Origin: an uncultured Bacteroidaceae bacterium
Lineage (GTDB): Bacteria > Bacteroidota > Bacteroidia > Bacteroidales > Bacteroidaceae
Assembly (NCBI GenBank): GCA_905234605.1
Contig: CAJOIE010000012.1
Location: 1-47,394 of the forward strand
Direction: 5' to 3'
DNA length: 47,394 nt
Shown here in pieces: positions 1 to 47,394 of this stretch (positions are counted from its first letter, which is position 1; each line of letters starts with the position of its first letter). The position numbers and the translations under genes were made by a program. Below the pieces are notes generated by a model that did not search any database, had not been told where the DNA came from, and worked only from the letters and a program-made list of their open reading frames with translations.

Positions 1-468
1 CTCACCCAAGAGCACCTACTATTGGAGCACCTACAAGTGGTGCAACGGCAGCGAAGATACCATGACCAAATACTGCACCTCCAGCTCCTACGGCACCGTC
101 GATAACCTCACGCAGTTGGAGCTCACTGACGACGCAGCCCGTGCTGTCATGGGCGGCACGTGGCGCATGCCCACCATCGCAGAACTCGATGCCCTCCGCA
201 GTACCTGCACCTGGACATGGACCAGCAAGGGCGGCCACAACGGCTGTCTTGTCACCGCCTCCAACGGCAACAAGCTGTTCCTGCCCGCTGCGGGCTATCG
301 CATGAGACGAGCCTCAACTACGAGGGCTCCTACGGCTACTATTGGTCGTCGTCGCTCTACTCGTCCGACTCCCGCAATGGCCAGTACCTCTACTTCAATA
401 GCAGCAGCCACTACACGAGCAACATATACCGCTACCGCGGCCGAAGTGTTCGCGCGGTCACAGAATAA
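1..468 (+). pseudogene. DGR target protein, C-type-lectin-like (5' end off window, frameshifted)
   Basis: The reading frame is open from base 2 and encodes a FISUMP/DUF1566-like domain with the motifs YKWCNGSEDT, GGTWRMPT, CTWTWTSKGGHNG and LFLPAAGYR, typical of DGR variable proteins in gut Bacteroidales. After GYR (base 301) the frame breaks. The sister gene at the right edge reads CGC-AAT-GAG-ACG, and this copy lacks one A. Restoring it gives NETSL, then YYWSSS and GRSVRAVTE ending at the TAA at 466-468. As written, translation runs on in the wrong frame to about 598. The protein is expected to be surface-exposed and ligand-binding, with the variable residues on the binding face. The defect could be true inactivation or an assembly error near a contig end. 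The 5' end and any signal peptide are outside the window. Confidence 0.85.
299..468 (+). repeat. DGR variable region (VR), left copy
   Basis: This segment aligns codon for codon with 47002-47172 on the other strand. In the 42 codons before the shared GGC-CGA-AGT tail, 22 codons differ and none differs only synonymously. The last part, with the A-free GC-rich core GTGTTCGCGCGGTC, is identical in both copies and is the likely initiation-of-mutagenic-homology (IMH) element. Homology between the two loci ends at the stop codon. The template repeat was not found in this window. Confidence 0.85.
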
Positions 469-4501: not shown

Positions 4502-5296
4502 TCACACCGCCACAGGTGCCTTGATGGCAGGCCATGGGTCGTAGCCCTCGAGCACAATGTCCTCGTAGCGGAAGTCGAGCAGTTCCTTCACATCGGGGTT
4601 GAGGCTCAGGCGTGGCAGGGGGCGCGGCGTGCGGGTGAGCTGCAAGCGTGCCTGTTGCTCATGGTTGAGGTAGAGGTGCGTGTCGCCCATGGTGTGAACG
4701 AAGTCGCCAGGCACAAGCCCCGTGACTTGCGCCACCATGTGGAGCAGGAGTGCGTAGGAGGCTATGTTGAAGGGCAGTCCGAGGAAGGTGTCGGCCGAGC
4801 GCTGATAGAGTTGCAGGGAGAGGCGTCCGTCGGCCACATAGAACTGGAAGAGCGTGTGACATGGCGGCAGGGCCATGCGCGACACCTCGGCAACGTTCCA
4901 TGCCGAGACGATGAGTCGGCGCGAGTCGGGGTTATGGCGTATCTGCTCCACCACGTTGGTCAGTTGGTCGATGGTGCCGCCGTCATAGTCGGGCCACGAC
5001 CGCCACTGATGTCCGTAGACGGGTCCGAGGTTGCCGTCGGCATCGGCCCACTCGTCCCAGATGCTCACGCCGTGGTCGTGGAGGTAGCCTATGTTGGTGT
5101 CGCCGCGCATGAACCACAGCAGCTCATAGATGATGCTGCGCAGGTGCAGCTTCTTGGTGGTGACAACAGGAAAGCCGTCGGCCATGCTGAAACGCATCTG
5201 GTGGCCGAAGATGCTGCGCGTGCCGGTGCCGGTGCGGTCGCTCTTGACGGTGCCGTCGGTGAGTATGGTCTGGAGGAGGTCTAAGTATTGACGCAT
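4502..5296 (-). CDS. thyA: thymidylate synthase
   Basis: 264 residues, the same length as the E. coli enzyme. The catalytic cysteine is C146 in the motif [11 protein letters not shown], and the dUMP-binding segment [11 protein letters not shown] is present. It methylates dUMP to dTMP using methylene-tetrahydrofolate. The start ATG at 5296 gives the canonical MRQYLDLL beginning. The upstream gene on the same strand (DUF3943, stop 5330) ends 33 bases before, so thyA is probably in an operon with it. folA follows after 96 bases with its own promoter element. Confidence 0.97.
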
Positions 5297-5329: not shown

Positions 5330-7726
5330 CTATAGCGAGTATTTCAGGCCGAGGCGCACCTCGAAGGTGTTGCTCTCCACATTGGGGAAGTAGTGATAGT
5401 GTGTGTTGCGGCCGTAGTATATGGCGCGCGCATCGATAGCCCACGCACCGGAGAGCGGGAAGTGCCACTGCGGCGACACCACGATGAGGCTGGCCCAGCT
5501 GCGCTCACCCTGCACATTGAGGTAGTGGGGGTCTATATTGGTGTAGTCCTTCTGCTCGTAGCCCTTCCATGTGTAGAGGCTGAAATACTCCACGCGCAGG
5601 TCGAAGCGGCAGTCGTTGGCGAAGCACAGCTGTGTGAGACTCTTCAGGCTGAAGCCGCTGCCCATGTTGTAGTCGCGCTCGAAGAAGTTGTAGTAGTCGC
5701 TGTAGGCACCGCCAAGGAGCATGGCTCCGGCAAAGAGACCCTGACGGTAGTGCTTGATGTGACCCATGTCGGTGAACTGCGATATGAGACCAGGTCCCAC
5801 GCTGGCCGCCTCGGAGATGCGGTAGGGCACACGCTTGGAGCCGTCGCGCACGGCCTCCGAGTTGTAGTGGGTGAAGTACTGGAAGACACCAACGTCGATA
5901 TCGGCATTCTGCGCCGAGCGCACCTCGGTGGTCCACAGACGTCCCAGTAGCCGCAGTTCCGAGATGAGGGGCTGGTTGCTGCTCAGTCCCACGGTGGCAT
6001 TGAGGCTGAAGAAGTCGTAGGGCTTGCGTGTGGTCTCGCTGAAGGGATTGCCATAGGTGATGCCTACGCTCAGGTATGGTGCCTGCTCGCCACGGAAGAG
6101 TGCGCCCCCGTCGGCCAGATAGCGCACACCTGCCGAGGCTGCGAGCGTCACGGGCAGCTGTGTGTGGTCGTGATAAGCATAGTGGTCGGCACGATAGCGC
6201 CATGCCTGGCCCGTGACGATGCGGTTGAAGCCGCGCATGGGGCTCACCAGCGTGGCTGCGGCCTCGCGCCAGAAGCGGCGCGCGCCGCGTGTGTGGTCGT
6301 CGAGTATGAGCGACGACAGTCGGAAGGTGATTTCGCCTATGGCCGTGCCTCCTATTGTTGTGGCAAAGAGGTCGTTGATAGCCGGCGGCTCGGTCTCGCA
6401 GAAGGCTTCCCACATCAGACTGCCGCCAGCGGCGTAGGGGATGGCAGTCCAGAAGCTGAGACCGTTGGCGCGTGCGGTGTTGAAATAGAGACCACCGTGG
6501 TAGGGGTGCGCGAAGGTGTTGGTAGCGAAGAAGTCGTTGTCCCACACGAAGCCTGTGCGCAGGTTGTCGCGTATGGTGTGGAGACTGATGCGCGCATAAT
6601 CCTTCTGTAGGGGATAGCGGTCGAAGAAGTTGACAAACACGTTGAGCCCAGCTGTCTCGAAGGCTGCTCGCCACGGATGGGGACGCTGCCACTGTGGGTC
6701 GTCGGCAGCGAAGAGGGTGAGGCTGTCCTCGGCAGTGAGTTGCTGGCGCGGGAGCAGGCGTGAGCGCGGCTGCATGCGTGCCGTGGCGGCCGCGATGCCG
6801 CTGTACGACATGGCTATCCCCGCCTCCACGAGCGGGCGGCTGCGGTACAGGCGCAAACGGCTGTAGCGGCGGGCATTCTCATAGCCCACGGTGGCGAAGG
6901 CCTCGAGCGAGGGCGTCAGCTGGAGCTCTGCGCTGACACGTCCCTGCAGGGCGAAGAAGCGTTCCGGCCCTGTGCTGCTGTCGTGGGCGAAGGTCTCTAT
7001 GTGAGCGTAGCCCACGTCGGCAGTCAGGCTCCAGCGCGTGCTGAGAGGGTGCTCCACGCCTACACGGTAGCCCAGCGCACCCGAGAAGCGTCGGTCGAGC
7101 CCCATGTAGTGTGTGCCCAGTGTGACGACATTGTAGTAGCCCGGATTGCGCAGGCGCAGCGAGAGGTTGGTCTTGCTGGCTGTGCCGCCATAGAGCATGA
7201 TGTCGTAGCGAGTGGCGGGCGAAATGTTCACCAGGCCCACACGGTGCCCGTCGGGTTCGCGGCTGATGTTCACCAACCCCACCTGCGTGCCGCCGTCGTT
7301 GGCCACGGCCACGTTGAAGATGCCCACCTGCGCGCCGCGCAAAGTGTCGGCATAGTTGTATGCCGCCAGCTGCGCGCCGCCCATGATGCCAGTGCTGAGG
7401 TTGGTCAGGGGTGACAGCTGCGCGCCGCGCGCCACGCCGCCAGAGAGGTTGCTCACTCCTGCCAGCTGCAAGCCGCGCATGGCGCTGAAGTTGGCATTGA
7501 GCAATGCAGAGAGCTGCATGCCGCCCATCTGCCGCGACACATTGTCCATGACACTGAGCTGCAAACCCGACATGCGCCCTGTGGTGACGGATGACAGCAG
7601 ATTGACTTGCACGCCACCGACACTGTCGCGCACACCGACAAGCACCTGACCGCACACATGCAGCGAGGTGCACAGCAACACCCCCATGAGCGTGGCGGCA
7701 CGGAGCTTCGCAGAAACAATATTCAT
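5330..7726 (-). CDS. DUF3943 outer-membrane-type protein with GxQ repeat region
   Basis: 798 residues from the ATG at 7726, which is followed by a signal peptide (MNIVSAKLRAATLMGVLL, cleavage near VCGQ). Upstream in-frame ATGs would overlap the divergent gene and its promoter, so they were rejected. Residues about 20-190 hold repeats of the form GxQL/GxQV (GLQLSVM, GMQLSAL, GLQLAGV, GAQLSPL, GAQLAAY, GAQVGIF), giving a beta-rich array. The middle (FVNFFDRYPLQKDYARIS, NTFAHPYHGGLYFNTARANG) is the DUF3943 domain of Bacteroidetes envelope proteins. The C-terminal half has the alternating pattern of an outer-membrane barrel ending in GLKYSL. The function is unknown. It is probably co-transcribed with thyA. 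Confidence 0.8.
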   Translation of the reverse strand: MNIVSAKLRAATLMGVLLCTSLHVCGQVLVGVRDSVGGVQVNLLSSVTTGRMSGLQLSVMDNVSRQMGGMQLSALLNANFSAMRGLQLAGVSNLSGGVARGAQLSPLTNLSTGIMGGAQLAAYNYADTLRGAQVGIFNVAVANDGGTQVGLVNISREPDGHRVGLVNISPATRYDIMLYGGTASKTNLSLRLRNPGYYNVVTLGTHYMGLDRRFSGALGYRVGVEHPLSTRWSLTADVGYAHIETFAHDSSTGPERFFALQGRVSAELQLTPSLEAFATVGYENARRYSRLRLYRSRPLVEAGIAMSYSGIAAATARMQPRSRLLPRQQLTAEDSLTLFAADDPQWQRPHPWRAAFETAGLNVFVNFFDRYPLQKDYARISLHTIRDNLRTGFVWDNDFFATNTFAHPYHGGLYFNTARANGLSFWTAIPYAAGGSLMWEAFCETEPPAINDLFATTIGGTAIGEITFRLSSLILDDHTRGARRFWREAAATLVSPMRGFNRIVTGQAWRYRADHYAYHDHTQLPVTLAASAGVRYLADGGALFRGEQAPYLSVGITYGNPFSETTRKPYDFFSLNATVGLSSNQPLISELRLLGRLWTTEVRSAQNADIDVGVFQYFTHYNSEAVRDGSKRVPYRISEAASVGPGLISQFTDMGHIKHYRQGLFAGAMLLGGAYSDYYNFFERDYNMGSGFSLKSLTQLCFANDCRFDLRVEYFSLYTWKGYEQKDYTNIDPHYLNVQGERSWASLIVVSPQWHFPLSGAWAIDARAIYYGRNTHYHYFPNVESNTFEVRLGLKYSL

Positions 7727-46941: not shown

Positions 46942-46956
46942 CCCCGCTGCGCGGGG
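46942..46956 (-). other. 6-bp hairpin downstream of the right VR
   Basis: CCCCGC and GCGGGG pair around a 3-base loop, 45 bases beyond the DGR target stop. Some DGRs need a DNA hairpin just after the variable region. This one is farther away than in the Bordetella phage system, and it may equally be a terminator without a U-tract. An AT-rich TTGAAT-type repeat fills the space between. Confidence 0.35.
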
Positions 46957-47001
46957 AATAAATTGAATTGGTTGAATGAATTGAATATATTGAATGAAGG
47001 G

Positions 47002-47172
47002 TTATTCTGTGACCGCGCGAACACTTCGGCCGTCGCAGCGGTAGAAGTCGTCCGTGTCGCGGCCGCCGCCATTGAAGTAGAGGCCCTGGCCGCCGCCGGA
47101 GCCGGACGCGTCGAGCGTCGACGACCAATAGCCGCCGCCGGAGCCCCCGCGGTAGAGGCTCGTCTCATTGCG
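47002..47172 (-). repeat. DGR variable region (VR), right copy
   Basis: Intact in frame. Its variable codons are mostly GGC and GAC where the left copy has TAC, AGC or AAC. Codon pairs such as TAC/GGC, CAC/CGC and AGC/GAC point to an AAC-rich template. The last codons, from GGC-CGA-AGT to TAA, are identical to the left copy. Confidence 0.88.
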
Positions 47173-47394
47173 ATAGCCCGCAGCGGGCAGGAACAGCTTG
47201 TTGCCGTTGGAGGCGGTGACAAGATAGCCGTTGTGGCCACCCTTGCTGGTCCATGTCCAGGTGCAGTTGCTGCTGAGGGCAGAGAGCTCTGCGAAGGTGG
47301 GCATGCGCCACGTGCCGCCCATGACGGCACGGGCTGCGTCGTCGCTTAGCTCCAACTGCGTGAGGTTGTCGACAGTGCCGTAGGAGCTGGAGGT
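47002..47394 (-). CDS. DGR target protein, C-type-lectin-like (5' end off window)
   Basis: 130 codons remain, starting TSSSYGTVDNLTQLELS and including GGTWRMPT, CTWTWTSKGGHNGY and LFLPAAGYRNETSL, followed by YWSSTL and the conserved end GRSVRAVTE. The fold is the FISUMP/DUF1566-like C-type lectin type used by DGR variable proteins. Over the stretch before the variable region it is about 94 percent identical at DNA level to the left-end gene. Its N-terminus, signal peptide and promoter are beyond the window. The reverse transcriptase, accessory protein and template repeat that would diversify it are also not present here. Confidence 0.88.
   Translation of the reverse strand, partial: TSSSYGTVDNLTQLELSDDAARAVMGGTWRMPTFAELSALSSNCTWTWTSKGGHNGYLVTASNGNKLFLPAAGYRNETSLYRGGSGGGYWSSTLDASGSGGGQGLYFNGGGRDTDDFYRCDGRSVRAVTE

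Follow-up and report, generated by a model that had tools for sequence, protein, structure and literature searches.

Dispersed gene ends with a predicted lectin tip are very probably remote targets of a diversity-generating retroelement missing from a Bacteroidaceae assembly

Results

The stretch of DNA analysed here (the window, 47,394 nucleotides) is the entire contig C12 (CAJOIE010000012.1) of an uncultured Bacteroidaceae bacterium, whose assembly (GCA_905234605.1) amounts to 2.36 Mb in 26 contigs and is 87% complete. The genes found at the two ends of this contig belong to a set of six dispersed genes, the predicted Lcl_C tip of which was very probably rewritten by a diversity-generating retroelement (DGR) that is absent from the assembly and would act in trans. 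An earlier note, made from the letters of the window, had presented the two gene ends as a pair of DGR targets; this count has to be revised, since the assembly contains six such 3' ends at distinct places. With BLAST, copies with a variable end were located at both ends of C12 (left, C12L; right, C12R), twice on C19 (C19:15310-15773, named C19i, and C19:25181-25316, named C19e, a mere 138-base fragment cut by the contig end), on C1 (C1:108638-109075) and on C22 (C22:1103-1567). The variable repeat (VR) is placed at the 3' end of the gene, in a predicted C-type-lectin-like tip, as is characteristic of DGR targets.

The bodies that carry this tip are diverse. The C19 target, 601 aa long, combines a protein kinase domain (E 4.7e-37), a predicted helix (modelled at residues 355-376 of P0121, a near-identical relative of the C19 kinase) and the tip. 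The C1 target is a PEGA protein (E 2.9e-25) in which the loss of about 14 bases shifts the frame of the end, and the C22 target, the start of which is open, contains four BACON stretches. As for the left gene, bases 2-99 of the window are 100% identical to C16:1-98, and C16 extends this gene upstream with a sequence that includes a BACON domain. A Pfam match to Lcl_C was obtained at the tip of the C19, C1 and C22 targets, in all cases below the curated cut-off. Foldseek returned only kinases among the 50 matches listed for the full kinase model, and its plain search with the tip modelled alone gave no match at E 0.001.

The variation among these gene ends is strongly biased towards adenines. 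The main counts rest on five copies, with the diverged C22 set aside and C1 masked past its deletion. On this basis, 47 of the 189 columns of the VR vary and 40 of these 47 contain an A, compared with 13 of the 35 varying columns (out of 198) in the upstream region, which is covered by four of the five copies (Fisher 1.5e-5). When the same four copies are used on both sides, the contrast persists (A in 39/46 VR columns versus 13/35 upstream), and columns with three or more states number 11 in the VR versus one upstream. Variable columns also distribute differently over first, second and third codon positions, with 23/21/3 in the VR versus 9/7/19 upstream. With all six copies, C22 included, an A is present in 50 of 65 variable columns.

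In search of templates, 205 loci were scanned for stretches rich in asparagine codons. Templates coding ..NYWS..LNFNS.. were found in four genomes of the same genus (G049, G018, G061 and G089) and in Bacteroidaceae bacterium RGIG4092 (genome G505), on a 3.4-kb contig named L186. Further related templates are present in G093, G103 and G108, and other genomes carry other template families. L186 displays, in this order, the end of a target, a MutS_I-like open reading frame (ORF; just below cut-off), Avd (phrog_3206, E 7.9e-22; Pfam bAvd below cut-off), the template and a reverse transcriptase (RT). HRDC and MutS-like (PF01624) proteins are both named as known DGR accessories in the accessible text of PMC10053308. 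In G049, the Lcl_C-type template (L102, G049:C4:178000-186917, at 6828-7040) runs directly into the middle of the RT frame, and the end of the template and the start of the RT appear to have been lost in assembly.

No gap is needed to align the L186 template with the VRs of our genome. Taking relatives' templates as stand-ins for the genome's own, 38 of 45 variable columns fall on L186 template adenines (Fisher 4e-17; 186 columns, without C22), or 38/47 over all 189 columns, likewise without C22, and 42/65 with all six copies. The G061 template gives a similar picture (35/44; 7e-17). As controls, six shifted L186 templates placed 17-24 of the 45 columns on adenines. The DGR-type RT and homologous A-rich template that the earlier note had proposed to look for are thus present in the same genus and in RGIG4092, and the expected coincidence of variable sites with template adenines is found for the templates of two relatives.

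A direct comparison of the left copy (281-468, forward strand) with the right one (47190-47002, reverse strand) reproduces most of the original description. We counted the same 31 substitutions in 22 codons, all of them nonsynonymous, with 29 at codon positions 1 or 2 (18/11/2 for first, second and third) and 21 having an A in one copy. The statement that all but one of the changes fit a template A is borne out as well: nine of the ten A-less substitutions sit where another copy of the genome or the L186 template has an A, and the one left unexplained is a T/C at a third position. In the upstream part, the roughly 15 differing sites are confirmed by our recount (15, of which 8 at third positions), but they extend over 198 aligned bases and not 235.

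Remote targets could be followed in two relatives, G505 and G061, each of whose genomes contains both a template and its targets. The comparison covered six of the eight G505 matches (a seventh is the template itself) and four of the ten G061 matches, the rest lacking a locus or not fitting the motif used, and left out the listed targets of G018, G049, G089 and G111. In G505, all mismatches between the local target and its own template are at adenines (24/24), and the same holds on other contigs for a BACON target (23/23) and, with a single exception, for two PEGA targets (17/17 and 28/29). In G061, the target adjoining the cassette is a 647-aa kinase-Lcl_C protein (20/20 at adenines) and a clean remote target is located on another contig (17/17). 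Therefore, G505 has three remote targets and G061 one clean one, and all three architectures of our genome (kinase, PEGA, BACON) recur among template-matched targets. Two paralogous G505 domains that do not match the template show 28/80 and 31/76 mismatches at adenines.

These last two domains illustrate how Lcl_C tips can vary without adenine bias, and Lcl_C domains are abundant and diverse. One could thus imagine an ordinary divergence of paralogues under diversifying selection and gene conversion, with no mutagenic template, all the more as the upstream regions diverge too. We consider this hardly credible given the adenine bias together with its coincidence with relatives' templates, and given that VR changes concentrate at the first two codon positions when those upstream are mostly at the third.

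In another genome, RGIG6243 (L127, L149, L151, L154, L178, L187), at least eight Lcl_C tips seem to derive from a template. Over six target copies (without two further ones, in L187 and the second in L151), 46 of 68 variable columns fall on L186 template adenines. As upstream variation is equally high (79/150 columns) and as A-rich (57/79 versus 54/68), this genome offers weaker support. No L186-type RT was found in RGIG6243, only one untyped RT. More broadly, homologues of the kinase target occur in 79 named loci, nearly all from Bacteroidales assemblies, mostly of ruminants or other animals, with one from Spirochaetia.

The only RT found in our own genome is of DGR type and is located on C24 (Table 1), next to an FGE-sulfatase-type target. 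Its template differs from this target at 19 sites over 145 aligned bases, 12 of them at adenines; the seven non-adenine sites are at the two edges and 11/11 core mismatches are at adenines. This template is unrelated to the Lcl_C tips, is the only one returned by the asparagine-codon scan of the genome's own loci, and a search of the genome for further targets of its type gave none beyond a 24-base match on C1. In the genome itself, the search suggested by the earlier note yielded this one DGR-type RT, with a template for another protein family, and neither the cognate RT nor the cognate template. Being the only RT in the genome and part of what looks like an intact DGR, the C24 enzyme might be thought to write the Lcl_C tips too, through a second, unassembled template. 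This is improbable, because its known template is of FGE type, with no similarity to these tips, and because in the RT tree it pairs with the RT of G104, which has the same FGE-type template, apart from the RTs that adjoin Lcl_C-type templates.

Table 1. Coordinates of the features in the window and of the DGR on contig C24
Feature	Sequence	Position	Strand	Remark
Left target gene, invariant body of tip domain	Window	2..300	+	Frame 2; gene truncated by contig start
Left variable repeat	Window	297..438	+	First to last column varying at a template-adenine site
Left constant tail, GGCCGAAGTGTTCGCGCGGTCACAGA	Window	439..464	+	After variable repeat; candidate homing-initiation site (putative role)
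GC hairpin, 6 bp stem, 3-base loop	Window	46942..46962	-	40 bases past right stop codon
Right constant tail	Window	47006..47031	-	After variable repeat; putative role as for left tail
Right variable repeat	Window	47033..47174	-	From copy alignment
Right target gene, invariant body of tip domain	Window	47191..47394	-	Truncated by contig end; N-terminal part off contig
C24 DGR template	L011 (G000:C24:1-8251)	~4850-4984		
C24 DGR RT	L011	4993-5994	-	
C24 DGR HRDC ORF	L011	5951-6463	-	
C24 DGR target	L011	6596-8251	-	FGE-sulfatase-type

The tail that follows the VR is identical in C12L, C12R, C19i and C19e, has two differing sites in C22 and is affected by a deletion in C1. The GC hairpin is found after three of the six copies (C12R, C19e and, with one change, C1) and not after C12L, C19i and C22. 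It may act as a terminator or in homing, although a role as homing signal for all copies is unsupported. The first bases of the 3' flank, hairpin included (window 46942-47001, reverse strand), are common to C12R, C1 and C19e and differ in C12L, C19i and C22, which suggests that some copies spread as larger duplications. Finally, just after TATCGC (around position 300), the left copy is one base shorter than the other copies, a gap that the earlier note does not mention; as assembled, its body is in frame 2 but its variable end in frame 1.

Discussion

The most likely reading of the sequence is that the six gene ends belong to the remote targets of a multi-target DGR. An RNA copy of the template would be reverse-transcribed with errors at adenines, and the resulting cDNA would replace the VR adjoining the constant tail. 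All six genes would depend on a single template, through which bodies as different as a membrane Ser/Thr kinase, a PEGA protein and BACON proteins would acquire newly varied putative binding tips. The proposal of the earlier note that the targets act at a distance from their RT is supported by the templates and remote targets of relatives, while neither the cognate RT nor its template was found in the genome's own assembly.

Several observations weigh against this interpretation. Searching the genome by BLAST with the left VR up to E 10 gave the six copies, otherwise short matches, and no template; searches of the assembly for an Lcl_C-type RT and for the MutS-like accessory, though not for Avd, met only the C24 enzyme and no accessory. 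The RT tree places the C24 RT outside the supported group formed by the RTs of G049, G061, L186, G089, G111 and G018, in which G018 covers 19% of the columns and G111 has no template seen in its locus. Two of the six copies (C12L and C1) are out of frame as assembled. Some targets of relatives are less clean: 20/24 for a second G061 kinase, whose alignment has a 3-column gap, 17/31 for a further G061 target, 19/26 for G049, with a template cut short in the assembly, and 30/56 for G018. In addition, the shifted-template controls are not flat (p 0.0008 for the -6 shift), so part of the overlap with template adenines comes from codon phase. Lastly, no second allele of the same species free of doubt was present among the matches listed in the protein searches (best 120 matches each).

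The missing cassette is in the unassembled part of the genome, repeats like these being prone to break contigs, or has been lost, or is carried elsewhere. We looked for a phage-borne writer without success: the exact 19-base tail pattern had 0 matches in viral contigs, the L186 RT had no relative there (pattern and tblastn), and its 96 matches in phage records were all below 60% identity. Hence, no close phage writer was encountered in these collections. Loss of the cassette would make the six gene ends fossils of a past diversification, with no current rewriting. In its favour, neither the cognate RT nor its template is in the assembly, the reading frame is broken in two copies, and the L186 RT used as a query in 12 target-bearing genomes matched in two only, one being its own (G505) and the other weak. 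However, a missing cassette is to be expected from an assembly that is 87% complete and broken at these very repeats, and the identity of the tail in four copies despite a diverged upstream body fits recent homing. Overall, we regard the fossil scenario as rather unlikely.

The position of both window copies at contig ends calls for some caution about assembly. Near-identical proteins among the matches listed are limited to the genome's own C1 protein (P0193) and P0121, encoded on a 25.6-kb contig. Compared with L012:8666-10468, P0121 joins an identical kinase to the C16/C12L body (98/99 residues shared with C12L) and the C19e tip, a mosaic resulting either from recombination or from an assembly chimera. 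For this reason, P0121 is unusable as a clean second allele, and the pairings of bodies and tips at contig ends are not trustworthy. Such a mosaic, the 98 bases shared by C12 and C16 and the base missing in C12L would all be in line with an assembly that stitched related copies and strains to one another at contig ends. As an account of the variation itself this is very improbable: stitching may shuffle tip-body pairs but would not produce adenine-limited variation, and C19i and C1, which are inside contigs, show the same pattern.

At a larger scale, we tentatively put forward, as a possibility we hold to be rather less probable than its opposite, that Bacteroidales possess a shared-tip repertoire. 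One template would rewrite the same lectin tip on membrane kinase, PEGA and BACON proteins across the chromosome, re-randomising sensing together with surface binding; many carriers would hold targets without a writer, the latter perhaps being gained and lost with an element that escapes binning, or acting only transiently. Practically, metagenome contig ends can be DGR targets whose writer is unbinned, and the approach of a large metagenome survey would, by its accessible account, not detect remote targets (PMC8144416). The two relatives that hold a template together with several remote targets make the full target set of one template definable and testable.

Much of this has counterparts in print: DUF1566 tips as DGR targets, templates with several VRs, remote targets, and targets from other phyla that combine a kinase with a lectin. 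DUF1566 (now Pfam Lcl_C) is given as the Pfam domain most often present in the DGR targets of human microbiome data, and several VRs per template are reported, in the accessible portions of PMC4159848 and PMC6642488. The tip domain of our genome is the same as in those targets; as far as these portions go, it differs in that template and RT are known from relatives only and that a Ser/Thr kinase and a PEGA protein are among the bodies. Among the titles and abstract openings surveyed, which leave subscription papers and preprints mostly outside, no kinase target from Bacteroidota was found. What is new here is the set of kinase, PEGA and BACON targets in a Bacteroidales genus, to which kinase-, PEGA- and BACON-linked Lcl_C tips are thus added.

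Within the same genome, the C24 DGR likewise combines a DGR RT with an adenine-varied target, and differs in template, target fold family (Pfam), HRDC accessory and RT group. In Thiohalocapsa PB-PSB1, the accessible text of PMC10907252 describes incomplete DGRs and candidate remote targets as well, with a protein kinase among the target domains and trans diversification explored with metagenome data; there, however, complete loci are part of the same circular genome. A parallel also exists with the remote variable proteins of cyanobacterial DGRs, which according to the accessible part of PMC7517822 are also dispersed genes with a 3' lectin tip, often Ser/Thr kinases. They belong to another phylum and are tied to a template of the same genome, which is not possible for the copies described here.
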